From: a virus
IMG/VR virus record: IMGVR_UViG_3300007770_000056
Location: 1 to 32,129 of that record
Reading direction: 5' to 3' (one strand)
Length of the DNA stretch: 32,129 nt
The notes below the pieces were generated by a model. That model did not search any database. It was given only the letters and a program-made list of their open reading frames with translations, and was not told the origin of the DNA. A program made the position numbers and the translations under genes. Below are positions 1,588 to 27,994 of the stretch, piece by piece (the first letter of the stretch is position 1; every line of letters begins with the position of its first letter).

Positions 1588-4500
1588 TTAAACAATTCCT
1601 GACACCGCCAGTGCTAAATCGGTATAGTTAATAGTGGATACTGCCGCGTTATCACTTGTAAACTTAAAGCGGAATTTAAAATATCTTCCACTATATGTGG
1701 TGCCCGTAGTAAACGACTCCCAGCCGTTATAAGTAATGTCGTCATCAGACCTGTTTATCTCAATAGAGCTTGTCACCGTGCCGGTAAGTACCGTAGTCAG
1801 TGTCAAGTTAAACCTGCCAGTGGCGATCTGCCCTACGTCAAACGCCGGTGTCGTAAAGCTGGCCTCATCTGCAAGTACGGGGAACCCCCATACAGCGTTA
1901 TCAAGGTCAGTCACATCGTCCCACTGCTGGCTCGTATCTATAGTGATGGACGGTATCGTGCGGGATCTGCTTGTCGCATCTTCTATGTACTCAATGGCCG
2001 CATTTGTCAGGTTCTCGGCAATATTTCCAAGATTCTCATTGAAATCAATAGTCTGGTTTAATACATAACCGGTAGCCTTGTACCTCACGGTCCCGGTAGC
2101 CAATGCGGCTGCGTCTATATCAAAAGCCTTTACAGTAAAGCCGCTGACTGTCTCGCTAAACGATTTAGGGTGAAGGTACTTGGTGTCGTCCGCGTCAAAC
2201 AGCTCAAGCGTGCCGTTTGTTATAGACGGGGCCACCTCAAAAGGTGTGGTATATGTTACGGCGAGGCCAGTACTGGCGTTGGTTATCGTTACTATGCCGG
2301 TCTCGACCTTATCTATCACGTCAAAGACCGTGCTCAGGCTGTACACGTTTAACTTGCCGGTGTTTACATCTGTCGGTGTAAATGAGACCTTGAACTTGTA
2401 ATATCTACAAGTGTAGTTCCCTGTCGTAAAGACCTGCCAACCGTTCCAGGCATCCAGCGTGTCAGCCGTGTTGATTTCTATCACAAAATCGACAGATCCT
2501 GTCAACACCGTACCCATCGTAAGCTCAATCTTGCCCGTGGTCACGCCGCCCAGGTCAAAGGGCTCTGTGGTAAAGTCCGCCGCTGCGGATAACACCGGAA
2601 AGTCCCAGGCAACTCCGTCAAGGTCTGTAGTGTCGTCCCACTGCTGGAGCGTGTCGTTTGTGAAAGATGGTATGGTGCGTGAGTTAAAGCCGGAGACGGG
2701 AATATACTCTATAGCTATATTATTCCTGTCTGTAATGTCGTTAATCATGTCAATAGCGCTACTATCAAACGCTATATTTGTGGTCAGGCCCTCTACGTCG
2801 ATACTGTAGGAGACCGGTGTGGATACATTGCCGGAGTTATCTACTGCCACTATCCAAAACGTCTTTGTCCCGTTAGTCGCAGCGGTCTCTATATACTCAA
2901 TCCCGCCCAGATAATCCTCTGTCACCGGTATTGATGTAGCGAACACCGCTCCGGAGGAGATCTTGTACCCGAACAGGTCCGCATCCGTTATCGCATTCCA
3001 TTTAAAACGTAGATTATTCCCCTCCTGTACAACTGTAAATCCGGACACTGCTGAGGGTGCCACATCCTTACCCACTATGGTGATGGTATTTGATTCCGCG
3101 CCGTCTGAGAGGGTGTGCCTTTCGTTTTCGGTCTGTAGCTTTACCGTGTACGACTTGCCCACCTCAGCCGTTATAGGCAAGCTGAAAGTTGTATCGAGAT
3201 AGGAGACATACTTTACAAACTCATACGCCCCTGAGTCCTCTTTGACGAGTAGCCTGTATCGGGTGAGTGTAAGCGTCTGGGCCGGTGCGGTGAAAGAACC
3301 ATTGACCTTTATCTCCCACGTCCCGTCCTCATTCACGAAACCGCCCTCTTCGGTTATGGTCAGGCTTGTTACCTCGTCAGTGGCCGTGAACGGGTTAGCA
3401 ACCCTCACATAATCCAGAGTCACAGGATCAGTCTCCAGGCTGTCATTAAATATGGTCGAGTTATACGCCTTTGCTGTTATCTCCCTGGTGTGGTCAGGAT
3501 ACTCTACCACACGCTCCACTGTCAACTCATACCACGTCGCCCCGTCTCCGAGAATGGGGTGTTTTATCCTTATCACGTCCCCGCGTTCACGTGGTGCGCT
3601 ATCTATATCAGTCTTGAACTTACAGCCGAACCAGTTCACCCTGTGATCGTTCATCGCCTGTGTAATCATCCTGATCGCCTGAGACTGCCGGGAAATAGCC
3701 TTGTAAGTTATCTCTTTAGTTACCACACCGCGAGGATTAGTCTGTTGGTCTGAATAGTCGTCTATTACCGGCGTGCGTGTCCAGGCGTCGTTACCCGCAT
3801 CTGACGGGTCCTTATAGATACCGATCATGCGGTTAGGCCGTTCCTGCTTAGAGAAAGTGTAATAACCGAAAGATCCCGGCAATATGGTGCCTGTCATCGT
3901 ACCAGGCTCATAATCCTGAACAGAACTCTCCGCTTTCCTCACCTTTAGCTTTAACACCTTGCCATTTGAAACAATAAACCCACCGAAAGACATAAGGATA
4001 TCTTGCAGTACATCCGTCCACGGCTTAAAGCTGTCCAGGGAATATGTTACCCTTGCCCTCGGCTCTGTCCCACCGGCGCCATCGCTTACCAATACCTCGG
4101 CCCATGTATACACCACACCGAACGAGGCGTCGTCTATCTCAGCCGCTACAAGGCCCGCTCCGCCCTGCTCCCGGTCCAGTAACAGATAGTCTCGTATGAC
4201 AGCTGCCGGGTTACCGCTTGCCGCAGCGGCCAGTGTTGTCCAGTCAGATCCGTTCCAGAGGGCTATCTTGCGGCCCTTTGCCACGTTTGTAGTCACCAGG
4301 GGATCTCCGGTAAGCTTCTCGCTCGCCTCCAGGGTCAGAGCCAGATAAGCCGTGTCCCTGAGTCCCCCTATATCGTTCGGGCTTGCGTCATACCGAGAGT
4401 CGATTCCCTGGCTTGACGTACCGGTGTAAATAGACACGCTAGACCCTGTAAAATTAGATATCGCGTCACCGTTAAGCTCTACACTGTCCACCGTCTCAAG

Positions 4501-4827
4501 CTCGCCTGCACCTATCTCCAGGAGCTGCTTCTGTGTGGTCCCCGGATCAGACCCCCATAGCCGCTTGAGTGGTACCCTCATGCCGTCCTCGGTCCAGATA
4601 AGCGCTGATGGTACCATATTGGATACAATATTCCTGAACCCGGCCAATTCATATATTGGAGATAGCGCTTCCTGACTGAATGTGTCGGTAGGTCCCGCCC
4701 CAAAATCCTGACTAGGAGTAAATATATCAACTACCGCAGAGACTGTCCCGCCTATAACATCAGCGGCGCCGCCAATTACATCACCAGCAAAGTCAATAAC
4801 ATCGCCTACAAAATCAAAAAATCCCAC
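1588..4827 (-). CDS. Tail tip attachment protein (gpJ-like) with FN3 domain and duplicated C-terminal module
   Basis: A 1079-aa protein that should form the tail tip or central fibre and contact the host. The first ~35 residues are repeats of a hydrophobic, Gly-rich pattern (FVGDVIDFAGDVIGGAADV), as in other gpJ-like proteins. Residues ~55-460 resemble the gpJ hub region. A fibronectin type III-like domain lies at ~588-680. The C-terminus holds two homologous modules, ~691-817 and ~925-1060, each with IEYI, RTIPS, QQWDD-TDLD, FPVL, VLTG, NGW-FTTG and R-YKF landmarks, separated by a beta-rich linker module. The start codon is GTG at 4827, 9 nt after AGGAGG. Part of the second module is duplicated exactly elsewhere in the window (24411-24482). 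The beta-sandwich nature of the modules is inferred. Confidence 0.85.
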   Translation of the reverse strand: MGFFDFVGDVIDFAGDVIGGAADVIGGTVSAVVDIFTPSQDFGAGPTDTFSQEALSPIYELAGFRNIVSNMVPSALIWTEDGMRVPLKRLWGSDPGTTQKQLLEIGAGELETVDSVELNGDAISNFTGSSVSIYTGTSSQGIDSRYDASPNDIGGLRDTAYLALTLEASEKLTGDPLVTTNVAKGRKIALWNGSDWTTLAAAASGNPAAVIRDYLLLDREQGGAGLVAAEIDDASFGVVYTWAEVLVSDGAGGTEPRARVTYSLDSFKPWTDVLQDILMSFGGFIVSNGKVLKLKVRKAESSVQDYEPGTMTGTILPGSFGYYTFSKQERPNRMIGIYKDPSDAGNDAWTRTPVIDDYSDQQTNPRGVVTKEITYKAISRQSQAIRMITQAMNDHRVNWFGCKFKTDIDSAPRERGDVIRIKHPILGDGATWYELTVERVVEYPDHTREITAKAYNSTIFNDSLETDPVTLDYVRVANPFTATDEVTSLTITEEGGFVNEDGTWEIKVNGSFTAPAQTLTLTRYRLLVKEDSGAYEFVKYVSYLDTTFSLPITAEVGKSYTVKLQTENERHTLSDGAESNTITIVGKDVAPSAVSGFTVVQEGNNLRFKWNAITDADLFGYKISSGAVFATSIPVTEDYLGGIEYIETAATNGTKTFWIVAVDNSGNVSTPVSYSIDVEGLTTNIAFDSSAIDMINDITDRNNIAIEYIPVSGFNSRTIPSFTNDTLQQWDDTTDLDGVAWDFPVLSAAADFTTEPFDLGGVTTGKIELTMGTVLTGSVDFVIEINTADTLDAWNGWQVFTTGNYTCRYYKFKVSFTPTDVNTGKLNVYSLSTVFDVIDKVETGIVTITNASTGLAVTYTTPFEVAPSITNGTLELFDADDTKYLHPKSFSETVSGFTVKAFDIDAAALATGTVRYKATGYVLNQTIDFNENLGNIAENLTNAAIEYIEDATSRSRTIPSITIDTSQQWDDVTDLDNAVWGFPVLADEASFTTPAFDVGQIATGRFNLTLTTVLTGTVTSSIEINRSDDDITYNGWESFTTGTTYSGRYFKFRFKFTSDNAAVSTINYTDLALAVSGIV
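1980..2051. repeat. 72-bp repeat, copy A (inside tail tip gene)
   Basis: Identical base for base to 24411-24482, in the same orientation, and extendable to 76 bp with one mismatch (2052 T versus C). Here it encodes about residues 926-949 of the tail tip protein (IDFNENLGNIAENLTNAAIE and onward), at the start of the second C-terminal module. The paralogous first module has a diverged equivalent (IDMINDITDRNNIAIEYI), so this copy is the likely source. Confidence 0.95.
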
Positions 4828-4850
4828 TTACACCTGCCTCCTTAATCGAC

Positions 4851-5753
4851 TTACGGATTTAAGCTTCTAGCCACAGTATTCTTGCCCCTGAAGTTGGCCA
4901 TGTTCCCGTTACTGGCGTCCACCTCAGTAAATCTCGTTTTACACATATCAAGCGTCCGGTTACAGTCACGCAGCACCTTTACCGTGTCATCCTCTGCCGG
5001 TGTGTTCGGCAGTGGCCATGCCAGGGTGAATGACTTGGTTGACTGTACCCAGTCTGTTATATTCCTCACATACCCGTCATTTGATCCGGAGGTAAACTCT
5101 ATCTTTCCTATGTTCCAGTAGTCATCCGCCTGGGCCATAGTCTTTACCTTTACCACGCTGGTCGTAGACCCCGCGTCCACATTGTCCGCAGTCTCCTGGG
5201 TGAGATCCGACACGGTCACACCCTGCGCACAGCGCGAGTTTGCGAAGATTGAAATCGGGCACACCCTGTCGATAGCCTGTCCTGACCGAAACCCTGTATA
5301 ACCTGTTTTTGAGACCACTTTTATCTGGCATATAGCCTCACCAATAAAAACATGGTCTACTATTCCGTCCAGTATGGTGACTGAGTGGGAAGTGTCGCTG
5401 ACCAGGTCTGCGAATATCTGACGTATCAAAAACCGCTTGTCGAGCATAAAACCCGGATGCTGCCAAAAAAAAGTCTGGAATCTGTCATCTACATTGCCGA
5501 ACTGTATAGTCACCGACGACTGTCTCAACCCTGCATTGTGAGATACCTGTCCGCGGGACAGCCGCCCACCTGGATACGTCTGCGCGTTACCATCAATGTT
5601 GAAGAAATCTATTGATTTATCGTAGATGGCATAATGATTTGTATCAGCGTCATCCGCCGTCTGAGACCCCAGGAAGAAATCCACGATCTCCACCGGCTTG
5701 TTCTGCGCTGCCTGTGCCTTTGCGTCAAAAGATGCTGTAGTTGTTTTGCTCAT
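4851..5753 (-). CDS. Tail hub protein, DUF2163/BR0599 family (GTA gp13-like)
   Basis: A 300-aa protein with the family's recognisable ending: Cys-Asn-Arg-Thr-Leu-Asp-Met-Cys near residue 266-273 followed by RF, then NFRGK close to the C-terminus. In gene transfer agents and related siphoviruses this protein joins the distal tail ring to the gpJ-like megatron and is thought to work with a NlpC/P60 peptidase. No NlpC/P60 gene lies next to it here, which is a difference from the usual gene order. The ATG follows the TAA of the DUF2460 gene with no gap, consistent with coupled translation. Assignment rests on the C-terminal motif and gene order. Confidence 0.8.
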   Translation of the reverse strand: MSKTTTASFDAKAQAAQNKPVEIVDFFLGSQTADDADTNHYAIYDKSIDFFNIDGNAQTYPGGRLSRGQVSHNAGLRQSSVTIQFGNVDDRFQTFFWQHPGFMLDKRFLIRQIFADLVSDTSHSVTILDGIVDHVFIGEAICQIKVVSKTGYTGFRSGQAIDRVCPISIFANSRCAQGVTVSDLTQETADNVDAGSTTSVVKVKTMAQADDYWNIGKIEFTSGSNDGYVRNITDWVQSTKSFTLAWPLPNTPAEDDTVKVLRDCNRTLDMCKTRFTEVDASNGNMANFRGKNTVARSLNP

Positions 5754-11443: not shown

Positions 11444-11479
11444 CTAACTCGTAACCCGTAACGTGCAACTCGCAACTCG
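11444..11479. repeat. Interspersed repeat of CGTAACCCGTAAC/CAACTCG units, copy 1
   Basis: Made of imperfect AACTCGTAAC, CCGTAACGTG and CAACTCG units directly after the capsid stop. Related strings occur at 15125-15150 and 23926-23959. No coding role is apparent. Confidence 0.65.
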
Positions 11480-15104: not shown

Positions 15105-15124
15105 AATTTTTTACTCCCTTTTAA

Positions 15125-15182
15125 ACTCGTAGCCTGCAACTCGTAACACGAGCCCCGTCATCCTGAGCGGAGTCGAAGGATC
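15125..15182. repeat. Composite interspersed repeat: CAACTCGTAAC units plus TCATCCTGAGCGGAGTCGAAGGA
   Basis: The left half repeats the units seen at 11444-11479 and 23926-23959. The right half is TCATCCTGAGCGGAGTCGAAGGA written on the plus strand at about 15158-15180, a string widely seen between genes of many unrelated bacteria. It separates the protease from the 106-aa gene. Confidence 0.65.
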
Positions 15183-19876: not shown

Positions 19877-20491
19877 TTATTTCCGCTTCCTATCCAGCTG
19901 CTTCTTAAAATCAGCATCAAACACCGGCTGATAATTCTCAACAATCGTCTTATTAATAACCACTCTCACCTTCCGGCTGTTATATAATTGAGCCACACTC
20001 GGCCCCAGGAGCGATCGTCTTTTAGTAGCTTTATACGGCCGTCCGGATTTGCTTATCCTGGTAACGGTTCCCAGTGCCTTGTCCCGGAGAAAAACAAACT
20101 GCGGCTGTTGAATCCCGCCCTTTCTCCAGGACGATATAAAAGCCCTGCCGATCTTCTTTCTGACTTTTGAGACCCTTACCGAAACACCGCTCTTTAACTG
20201 CTTTGCCCCATACTTAAACAGGCCGCGCGCTCTCTTCCGGATAAATATAGTAAAAGTCGGATTCGGCTTCCTTGCATCAGCCCTGCGCAGGCTCACCAGA
20301 TTGCCCAGCTTCAAAGACCTGGACTTAATATTATAATTCGACGTAATAAACTTCCTGGCCGCAGTATTCGCCTTCCGGCCCACCTTATTAAGAGTACCGG
20401 CAGTCACCCTCTTCGTGATCCGCGGCAACTCGTCAATCGTCCTCTGCACCGACTTAACATCAAAATCCAACCTTACAAATTCATTCGCCAT
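19877..20491 (-). CDS. gpZ-like minor tail / tail completion protein
   Basis: 204 aa from the ATG at 20491 (MANEFVRLDFD); the frame continues upstream through a terminator hairpin and is unlikely to be translated there. The protein is very basic. ITKRVTAGTLNKVGRKANTA, then RKFITSNYNIKSRSLKLGNL, and a C-terminal VVINKTIVENYQPVFDADF match the prophage minor tail Z family. The gene lies ahead of the terminase genes, not in the usual head-tail junction slot. Confidence 0.75.
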   Translation of the reverse strand: MANEFVRLDFDVKSVQRTIDELPRITKRVTAGTLNKVGRKANTAARKFITSNYNIKSRSLKLGNLVSLRRADARKPNPTFTIFIRKRARGLFKYGAKQLKSGVSVRVSKVRKKIGRAFISSWRKGGIQQPQFVFLRDKALGTVTRISKSGRPYKATKRRSLLGPSVAQLYNSRKVRVVINKTIVENYQPVFDADFKKQLDRKRK

Positions 20492-20787: not shown

Positions 20788-20895
20788 ATTTTGATTTTGC
20801 TCTTTGCTGCTTTGTTTCACCGAGCATAACGAGTTTTTTGTAATTTGTCAATAATAATATTAGTAACGTAACAGAATATTTTTAGTGATACGGAT

Positions 20896-21069
20896 TTATA
20901 TAACCTCCTCAAAGCAAATCTCCCTATCTGTAGCGTTAAAGACCGCAACTATCAACTCAGACTGCACATTATTGCCTATATCCTCACAAGCAGCTTTGAA
21001 TTTCCGTATAGCAAGCTCAAGATCCTGCCTCGCTTCATTAAATTTCTTATACTTCAAAGGATCACTCAT
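20896..21069 (-). CDS. Small helical early protein
   Basis: 57 aa from the ATG at 21069, chosen because GGAGGGTTTTTT lies just before it; the same GGAGGGTTTTTTATGAGT start context precedes the gene at 25016. One long charged helix (DPLKYKKFNEARQDLELAIR) is followed by a hydrophobic segment and ends FEEVI. The longer frame to 21201 runs through palindromic leader sequence and is not credible. Function unknown. Confidence 0.65.
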   Translation of the reverse strand: MSDPLKYKKFNEARQDLELAIRKFKAACEDIGNNVQSELIVAVFNATDREICFEEVI

Positions 21070-21239
21070 AAAAAACCCTCCGTTCTTGTAGGTCCCGCGA
21101 TCGCCCTGGCGATCACCTCCCGGTGATCCGCACAGATCCTCGCGTAACGTAAACCTTTTAAAAACCTGCCACGCTTGCGAAAAAGCGCACTCGATTCGCA
21201 CCCGTGTAGCTTGTACCTGCCAAAGTACCTTTTTGTTTA
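21070..21239 (-). other. Structured non-coding leader with two overlapping palindromes
   Basis: This gap has no convincing gene. Two perfect inverted repeats overlap by GATC: GATCGCC-CT-GGCGATC (21099-21114) and GATCACC-TCCC-GGTGATC (21111-21128). A third weak hairpin, CGCTT-AAGCG, lies near 21170-21186, and GGTAC occurs twice near 21225-21239 on the minus strand. It could be operator or RNA structure before the 57-aa gene. Confidence 0.5.
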
Positions 21240-23751: not shown

Positions 23752-23961
23752 TCATGTATTCCCCAAAACCTTCCACACAACATAAGCAAAATAACCACAA
23801 CAACCGCTTAATAAAGCTACAGCCCCATAAAAACAAAACCACTCTTTACCTTTGCGCTCTCCTTGTCCTCGGCGCCTTTGTGGCTCCGTGTGAGTACTCA
23901 ATCCCTTAATCCCTCTTTTCTTGACCCGTAACGTGTAACCTGCAACTCGTAACCCGTTCAA
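23752..23961 (-). CDS. Doubtful small membrane ORF extended by repeats
   Basis: A 69-codon frame. Its first ~39 codons are the translation of interspersed repeats (NGLRVAGYTLRV comes from the CGTAAC units; EPQRRRGQGERKGK from the CGGCG-type unit). Only the last part, WFCFYGAVALLSGCCGYFAY and VVWKVLGNT, looks like a real one-helix membrane peptide, and it has no good start of its own. It is probably the remnant of a small membrane gene whose 5' end was overwritten by repeats, or a chance frame. Confidence 0.3.
   Translation of the reverse strand: MNGLRVAGYTLRVKKRGIKGLSTHTEPQRRRGQGERKGKEWFCFYGAVALLSGCCGYFAYVVWKVLGNT
23848..23896. repeat. Interspersed repeat of the CTTTGCG-CGGCG type, copy 2
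   Basis: CTTTGCGCTCTCCTTGTCCT, CGGCGCCTTTGTGGCTCCGT and GTGAG follow one another here. The CTTGTCCTCGGCGCC core is identical to copy 1. Confidence 0.7.
23926..23959. repeat. Interspersed repeat of CCGTAAC/CAACTCG units, copy 3
   Basis: CCCGTAACGTGTAACCTGCA is followed by ACTCGTAACCCG. The units match those at 11444-11479 and 15125-15150. It abuts the stop of the 103-aa gene at 23958. Confidence 0.65.
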
Positions 23962-24294: not shown

Positions 24295-24546
24295 TCAATC
24301 CCAGCACTCTATCTCTGCCTCTGCCATCTGTTCAGGAGTTTTATCTTGCAAGCCTTCCTCTGGATCGCTCCAGTACTCCCATGATGCCTTTGCATACACC
24401 TCCAGATCTCCTTCTATGTACTCAATGGCCGCATTTGTCAGGTTCTCGGCAATATTTCCAAGATTCTCATTGAAATCAATAGCCTGCTCTCCGATAATCT
24501 CTACCATTCGTCTGATAAAGCGCGTTTTATACTCTTTGTATTCCAT
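24295..24546 (-). CDS. Small early protein carrying a 24-residue insert copied from the tail tip gene
   Basis: 83 aa. The N-terminus (MEYKEYKTRFIRRMVEIIGE) and the acidic end (VYAKASWEYWSDPEEG, PEQMAEAEIECWD) resemble a small phage early family with an EYA--YW-DP and C-term -A-Y/CW ending. Between them, about residues 22-45 (IDFNENLGNIAENLTNAAIE and onward) come from a 72-bp exact copy of the tail tip gene, a multiple of three that keeps frame. The insert would lengthen the middle helix. The start overlaps the previous gene region closely (2-nt gap). The function of the family is unknown. Confidence 0.75.
   Translation of the reverse strand: MEYKEYKTRFIRRMVEIIGEQAIDFNENLGNIAENLTNAAIEYIEGDLEVYAKASWEYWSDPEEGLQDKTPEQMAEAEIECWD
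24411..24482. repeat. 72-bp repeat, copy B (inside small early gene)
   Basis: Base-for-base identical to 1980-2051 and in the same orientation, 22,431 bp away. It encodes the same peptide in the same frame within the 83-aa gene. The absence of any silent difference indicates a recent event or continued gene conversion. Confidence 0.95.
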
Positions 24547-24785: not shown

Positions 24786-25016
24786 CTCCCCTGTTGCAAA
24801 CACAACTTGCAGACCCTTCCACTCCCTGAACTCGCTGTCCCTAGCCTCGGTAAACCTTGTCGCCTCCTCAGCAAGCTCCTCTTTAGCGATCCTCGCCACT
24901 GCGTTGTCATGCACCTTCACGGCGCCGCGCGTACACAAGAACCCGATACCGGCAAAGAACGCTACCGCAAGGCAAAACTGAACAATATCCCACGCAACCC
25001 ATAAAGATTTACTCAT
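24783..25016 (-). CDS. Small membrane-anchored coiled-coil protein
   Basis: 77 aa. One membrane helix at ~9-30 (DIVQFCLAVAFFAGIGFLC), then a charged helix (VARIAKEELAEEATRFTEAR). GGGGAGGGTTTTTT precedes the ATG. The stop falls within an interspersed repeat. Possibly a superinfection-exclusion or lysis-timing type membrane protein, but nothing specific supports that. Confidence 0.65.
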   Translation of the reverse strand: MSKSLWVAWDIVQFCLAVAFFAGIGFLCTRGAVKVHDNAVARIAKEELAEEATRFTEARDSEFREWKGLQVVFATGE

Positions 25017-25050
25017 AAAAAACCCTCCCCAAGAAAAGAAAAAAACACCA

Positions 25051-26397: not shown

Positions 26398-27387
26398 TCA
26401 TATCCCCAGCCCTTCCTGTCTCAACCTAGCATCATTAACAATATTTTGACAATGCTCACTATCTATCTCACTTCCTACAAACCTTCTATTTAACCTTTTA
26501 CATGCAAATAGAGTAGCACCAGACCCTGTAAAAGGATCAAAAACAATATCACCAACATTAGTACATGATTCAATTATCCTACATAACAATGCTACTGGTT
26601 TTTCAGTAGGATGGTTAGAAGGAGGGACTCTATCAAACTTCCACACGTTTGAATGTCTATACCCTTTTAATTTAAAATCTTTTTTTGGTATAAACGCAAT
26701 ACATTCATATTGATTGCCAAAATCCCCTTCAAGATTACCAGCAGTCCAATTATTCTTAACCCATATTATTCTATTGCGAATTCGAGTCAAATGAGGTTTT
26801 TGCTTTTCAAATTCCTTTACATTTTCATCAATAGCATGCATAGTTTGACTTATCATAGAGGTTATTTCCCCTTTACTAGCCCCACAACCTCTTAATTTAT
26901 CTAACATTGCTCCCATATGCATATACATTTTACTATGATTATCTCTCAACATTTCAATTTCACGTTCATCAGGATCATCTAATTCTATTTTATGACTATA
27001 AAAACTCCACAAACTTCCCGTATCTCTTAATAAATCCCAAAACATATCAATGTTCATATATAACACATCATCATTCTGAATATCTTTTAACTTTTCTTTT
27101 CTATGGTTAGATAAATAATTAATACCATATGGAGGGTCTGTTAATATCAAATCAATACTATTACCGTTTAACTCCCTTACTACATCATTCATGTCGTTAT
27201 TAAACAATGTTATATTCCCATCCTCATAATACGGCTCTAAATGCTCATAAGTCTCCGGGTAGTCACCGCCATGATCCGCGAAAACCGCTTCGCACTCTAT
27301 ACCCTGTTTTTTCAATAAGATCATGTGCGCTGTCGAATTCACCCCGCCGCCATAAGACAAATATTTCTTGATTTGTTTCCCGCTCAT
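26398..27387 (-). CDS. Chimeric protein: PAPS-reductase-type N-terminus fused to a DNA methyltransferase
   Basis: 329 aa from the ATG at 27387, which has AAGGAGA 8 nt upstream. Residues 1-50 read as the start of a PAPS reductase/ATP-pyrophosphatase fold: YLSYGGGVNSTAHMILLKKQ (P-loop-like SGG motif with GGGxNS) and VFADHGGDYPETYEHL. From about residue 57 it is a beta-class amino-methyltransferase: LTDPPYGINY (motif IV, 82-91), NHPTEKP (258-264), then FDPFTGSGATLF (motif I, 283-294). The rest of the PAPS reductase is missing. A helical stretch at ~135-200 may be a target recognition insert. GC content drops at the join. Methylation of adenine is likely from DPPY. Confidence 0.85.
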   Translation of the reverse strand: MSGKQIKKYLSYGGGVNSTAHMILLKKQGIECEAVFADHGGDYPETYEHLEPYYEDGNITLFNNDMNDVVRELNGNSIDLILTDPPYGINYLSNHRKEKLKDIQNDDVLYMNIDMFWDLLRDTGSLWSFYSHKIELDDPDEREIEMLRDNHSKMYMHMGAMLDKLRGCGASKGEITSMISQTMHAIDENVKEFEKQKPHLTRIRNRIIWVKNNWTAGNLEGDFGNQYECIAFIPKKDFKLKGYRHSNVWKFDRVPPSNHPTEKPVALLCRIIESCTNVGDIVFDPFTGSGATLFACKRLNRRFVGSEIDSEHCQNIVNDARLRQEGLGI

Positions 27388-27406
27388 TTGCATCTCTCCT
27401 TTGTTA

Positions 27407-27994
27407 TTAATTTTTTGACATTGCAAAAACTTCACACTCTAACTTCGCCACAGCCAGTACTGATGGTTTCAGTTCTTCGGGTACATCTTTATAGCCGTAT
27501 CTGTTTAGATGCATATGTACCTGCGTGCTCACTAATACTAAATTCTCTAAATGATAATTGCTTGGATTGCTGTCTTTGAACCTCAATACATGACCGTCTG
27601 GTATTTTGCCGTGAGCCTGTTCCCAAACAACGATGTGCTTGTATTGCCAGGTACTCGGTTCAGCAGTTTTAATTAGCACCCTGCCATCTGCATGGGGGGC
27701 TACCTCAGATCCTACAGGTTTTCTCCTTAGCGACTTGTCTCCTTTTTTAAAGCTGCCTTTATTTGCCTTACATACACCCTTGCCCTTAGTATCGGTATTC
27801 CAGGACCTGTTCCCTTTCTTATAGCGAGCGCTTCTGCCAGTGAGCCATCCACGCCTTATGCGAAATTGCTTTATTGCCTCATTGGTTTTGTCAGTTCCAA
27901 ACTTTCTATTAAAAATCTCAACAAGTCTGGCGGGTTCGAGAGCCCTGTTATCGTAAATAAATATCTCTTGCTTTTTTGTGTAACGGTTATACAT
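27407..27994 (-). CDS. HNH endonuclease
   Basis: 195 aa. N-terminal DNA-binding helices (TKKQEIFIYDNRALEPARLV, then NEAIKQFRIRRGWLTG), a basic Gly/Lys-rich middle, and an HNH_3-type nuclease core: YKHIVVWEQAHGKIPDGHVL (118-137; His120, His135) followed by FKDSNPSNYHLENLVLVS (139-156; Asn151). Freestanding HNH genes spread among phages as homing endonucleases or assist packaging. It lies beside the chimeric methyltransferase and may have helped move that cassette. Its start lacks a clear ribosome site. Confidence 0.85.
   Translation of the reverse strand: MYNRYTKKQEIFIYDNRALEPARLVEIFNRKFGTDKTNEAIKQFRIRRGWLTGRSARYKKGNRSWNTDTKGKGVCKANKGSFKKGDKSLRRKPVGSEVAPHADGRVLIKTAEPSTWQYKHIVVWEQAHGKIPDGHVLRFKDSNPSNYHLENLVLVSTQVHMHLNRYGYKDVPEELKPSVLAVAKLECEVFAMSKN

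Follow-up and report, generated by a model that had tools for sequence, protein, structure and literature searches.

The repeat and the two genes that carry it

The window, that is the whole stretch of 32,129 nucleotides of viral DNA that was analysed, holds a tail gene and a small gene, both on the minus strand, which share an exact repeat. The features concerned are the following:

1588 to 4827, minus strand: donor gene, central tail fiber J-like protein of 1079 aa (PHROG phrog_31 'central tail fiber J', E = 6e-32)
1980 to 2051, minus strand: donor copy, within the second C-terminal module encoded by the tail gene; a related contig (L012) has a diverged, collinear counterpart
24295 to 24546, minus strand: recipient gene, encoding 83 aa, or 60 aa when the insert is lacking, and of no recognised family in profile and homologue searches
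24411 to 24482, minus strand: complete 72-bp exact match, consisting of the insert plus 1 and 2 bases common to donor and target (sequence comparison)
24412 to 24480, minus strand: inserted 69-bp segment of 23 codons, IDFNENLGNIAENLTNAAIEYIE, missing in the otherwise identical gene of L003/L008 and equal to 1981 to 2049 exactly
24411, no strand: end base of contig L007, from a third sample, and last base that filled and empty forms share (contig comparison)

The first-pass annotation had claimed that positions 24411 to 24482 equal positions 1980 to 2051 base for base. A base-by-base comparison confirmed this, since all of the bases (72/72) were identical and in the same orientation, and one mismatch appeared when the repeat was stretched to 76 bp. 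The significance of the 72-bp match, as searched within the 32-kb record, was E = 7e-36. A scan of the window for exact direct repeats of at least 18 bp returned this pair plus two pairs of 18 bp; inverted repeats of at least 18 bp were absent from the window. The repeat encodes an identical peptide in both genes, on the minus strand. Outside the 69-bp segment and its edges, the donor and recipient genes showed no match to each other; the segment is thus a fragment common to otherwise unrelated proteins, as in phage domain mosaicism.

The residues on both sides of the segment in the small protein had been said to look like an ordinary small phage family, and our profile searches did not support membership of a known one: the 83-aa protein had no Pfam match and no significant PHROG match, and the PHROG matches of the small protein in either form were weak (E = 0.016-0.084). 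For the 60-aa form, the top PHROG match spans the insertion point and, at E = 0.016, is only a hint. No relative was found in the phage records searched with the small protein and its neighbours, and the genome contigs searched gave none for either the small protein or the terminase; matches of the 60-aa form at E of at least 3 and a 76-bp match at E = 0.6 in the phage records were rejected as chance. A more distant relative (L018) keeps both neighbouring genes and has a slot of about 240 bp without a recognisable small gene, which makes the small gene accessory. That slot (positions 2730 to 2969 of L018) carries an inverted repeat, CTACACATAC...GTATGTGTAG.

The empty site and the direction of copying

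When the 83-aa protein was searched against viral contigs, an empty-site allele was recovered on contig 3300009374_000444 (L003, L008; IMG/VR). The L008 version of the small gene encodes 60 aa and is without exactly 69 bp, and the DNA flanking the site is identical to that of the window for 76 bp in one direction and 688 bp in the other. In this contig GAGCAGGCT is followed directly by GGAGATCTGG, and it is at the point between these two that the window holds the 69 bases ATTGAT...ATAGAA. This point falls between two codons, so that the only difference between the two forms is one of whole codons. The exact match is longer than the insert because the target already had the three remaining bases, CT at one end and G at the other. 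The earlier description of a 24-codon piece inserted in frame therefore stands as to the frame, while the empty-site relative sets the unit at 23 codons (69 bp). It had also been proposed that homologues of the small protein would lack about this stretch, and the sole full-length homologue found (L003/L008) is indeed without exactly residues 23-45 and otherwise identical.

An ectopic templated insertion is expected to show an empty target site in a close relative, which is found in L003/L008, and an exact copy of a distant sequence with the donor kept, which is found in the 72/72 match to a tail gene that is intact and open. The copy has not diverged from the tail-gene sequence (72/72), in line with the earlier remark that no silent changes had yet accumulated.

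The tail gene had been named as the likely donor. A tail homologue on contig L012, which shares 82% identity in DNA and 88% in protein with the tail gene over the C-terminal 440 aa, holds the segment collinearly, diverged to an ordinary degree (82.5% over 63 bp). It follows that the segment is native to the tail gene, which supports this gene as the donor. A search of phage records with the tail C-terminus found no relative. The opposite polarity, in which the filled form would be ancestral and the segment either lost by L008 or taken by the tail gene from the small gene, draws on the fact that no more than a single full-length homologue is known for the small gene; it is barely credible, because the segment sits in its collinear place in a tail homologue with about 18% DNA divergence, and because a precise loss of 69 bp that lacks flanking repeats and matches the tail gene exactly is implausible.

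Joints, contig ends and the proposed route

At the left joint (CAG.CT), donor and target match at 5 of 6 bases, for which the chance is 0.5%, while the exact shared joint bases number three (CT plus G), for which the chance is 5.5%. Apart from about 6 bases at one joint and 1 at the other, the flanks of donor and target are unrelated. This microhomology is too short for naming a mechanism.

The window is the only direct witness of the filled form, as a direct search for the filled junctions in further contigs found none. With these junctions known from one metagenomic contig and with a repeat that is perfect, an assembler or a chimeric molecule might have put the tail segment into the small gene of a phage that is really empty. 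We consider this unlikely. The empty site and the tail locus share few bases at the joints, far fewer than any assembler overlap, so that both junctions would need real molecules. Moreover, contig L007, from another sample, is identical to the window over its last 1490 bp and ends at 24411, exactly where the two forms part: read from the L007 side, the filled form is AAG/GAG and the empty form CTG/GAG, with 24411 as the last common base. The rough chance of such an ending is about 1 in 10,000, and a contig merely broken at the repeat would enter the repeat, or end at 24410 if trimmed. De Bruijn contigs stop at the branch base when both continuations are present. Under this general assembly behaviour, the end of L007 suggests that filled and empty alleles coexist in its sample, which makes misassembly less likely.

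We therefore favour, with a probability of about 0.78, a recent, non-reciprocal, ectopic templated insertion of tail-gene bases into the small gene. The data show both forms of the site, the donor, the precise limits of the insert and the lack of divergence in the copy; the molecular route that we infer would run as follows. A break or a stalled strand in the small accessory early gene would have received the copy; 69 tail-gene bases would have been copied in with few shared bases at the joints (CAG.CT and G), and the tail copy would have been left intact. The likeliest events are template switching in replication or repair, or the annealing of a short tail-gene strand, with the same genome or a sibling genome inside the same cell as the template. 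The insert would have been tolerated, probably because the small gene is dispensable. The window genes that were scanned yielded no recombinase, so that the enzyme would be the host's or encoded elsewhere. That an active process of the phage or its host moves copies of short pieces, in frame, from one phage gene to an unrelated one, with filled and empty alleles coexisting in one population, appears distinctly improbable.

Reading frame, known systems and other features of the window

Among the sense-strand frames of the segment, the donor frame alone is stop-free and the other two contain stops. The in-frame survival of the segment therefore needs no selection for the helix, and the kept donor frame was rejected as proof of function. 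Single-sequence AlphaFold2 models predicted one helix at residues 3-59 in the filled form (mean pLDDT 88) and two short helices in that region in the empty form (mean pLDDT 64), which would suggest, weakly and from one sequence each, that two short helices become a single long one through the insert. These models and the preserved reading frame are what speaks for a selected capture, in which the segment would be retained for a useful longer helix or for contact with a tail partner. We consider such a capture distinctly improbable: the stops in the other sense frames mean that the donor frame simply leaves a full-length protein, there are zero substitutions from which selection could be measured, the small gene is missing in the relative L018, and single-sequence helix models are weak evidence. 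The stop-free donor frame, together with the absence of the gene from L018, fits a tolerated accident without selection.

Two classes of element were considered and rejected. In-frame mobile elements of the Rickettsia palindromic element type reside in genes, have inverted repeats and occur in several dispersed copies; here there are two copies only, the window lacks any inverted repeat pair, and the tail copy is native to its gene. In diversity-generating retroelements, the variable and template repeats differ at template adenines and a reverse transcriptase is present; here the copies are identical over 72 bp, and no match to a reverse transcriptase was found among the subset of window genes scanned.

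Mosaic phage proteins are usually observed long after the event. The present case is a fresh, unusually small example of this known mosaicism, in which the donor, the target, the empty allele and the two joints can be read to the base, before divergence. Recently emerged fragment sharing among phage proteins of different function was surveyed by Smug et al. (2023; PMC10684548), with a minimum fragment of 50 aa. Our case resembles theirs in that a piece of very high identity lies in differing proteins, among them tail proteins and others of unknown function (PMC10684548), but it differs in that the piece is 23 aa long, donor and recipient belong to one genome, and the empty allele and exact joints are known. 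It shows that a unit as small as 23 codons can be exchanged, and on how little homology. Surveys with a 50-aa limit are blind to such events, which may therefore be commoner than thought. The open-access papers searched, with limited terms, described nothing comparable inside a single phage genome.

The MMBIR model of microhomology-mediated template switching was built for human copy-number changes (PMC2621351); our case is like it in the short copy from a distant place, the unchanged donor and possibly the few shared joint bases, and unlike it in that the carrier is a phage and the shared bases are few. Relaxed homologous recombination of the lambda Red type (PMC2327257) explains mosaic phage genomes via joints in diverged sequence. 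It acts on homology that is diverged but long, whereas the flanks here are unrelated beyond about 6 bases and the scanned window genes yielded no recombinase of this kind.

Several other features were observed in the window and its relatives. Over 14 kb, 40 of the 47 differences between L007 and the window fall within 20103-20231 and 20831-21048, like exchanged patches. L008 carries, at its positions 4375-5633, about 1.26 kb that the window lacks at 21078-21142; this extra DNA has a 267-aa reading frame with the motif EKLDGVRAVW, which looks like an ATP-dependent DNA ligase. The joint adjoins a 26-bp repeat at 21056-21081, also found at 25003-25028, with a ribosome-binding site and a start, which is likely a recombination boundary. 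Contig L006 (5478-8078) continues for 2.6 kb past window position 1 and ends in a putative tyrosine integrase C-terminus; the window is therefore probably a truncated temperate phage. The gene at 26398-27435 encodes a DNA methylase whose N-terminal residues 11-67 match phrog_424, a phosphoadenosine phosphosulfate reductase family (E = 2e-9); part of a reductase appears to be fused to the methylase. Finally, a 27-bp sequence like AACTCGTAGCCTGCAACTCGTAACACG occurs in three copies that are 81-100% alike, at 11453-11479, 15124-15150 and 23930-23956.
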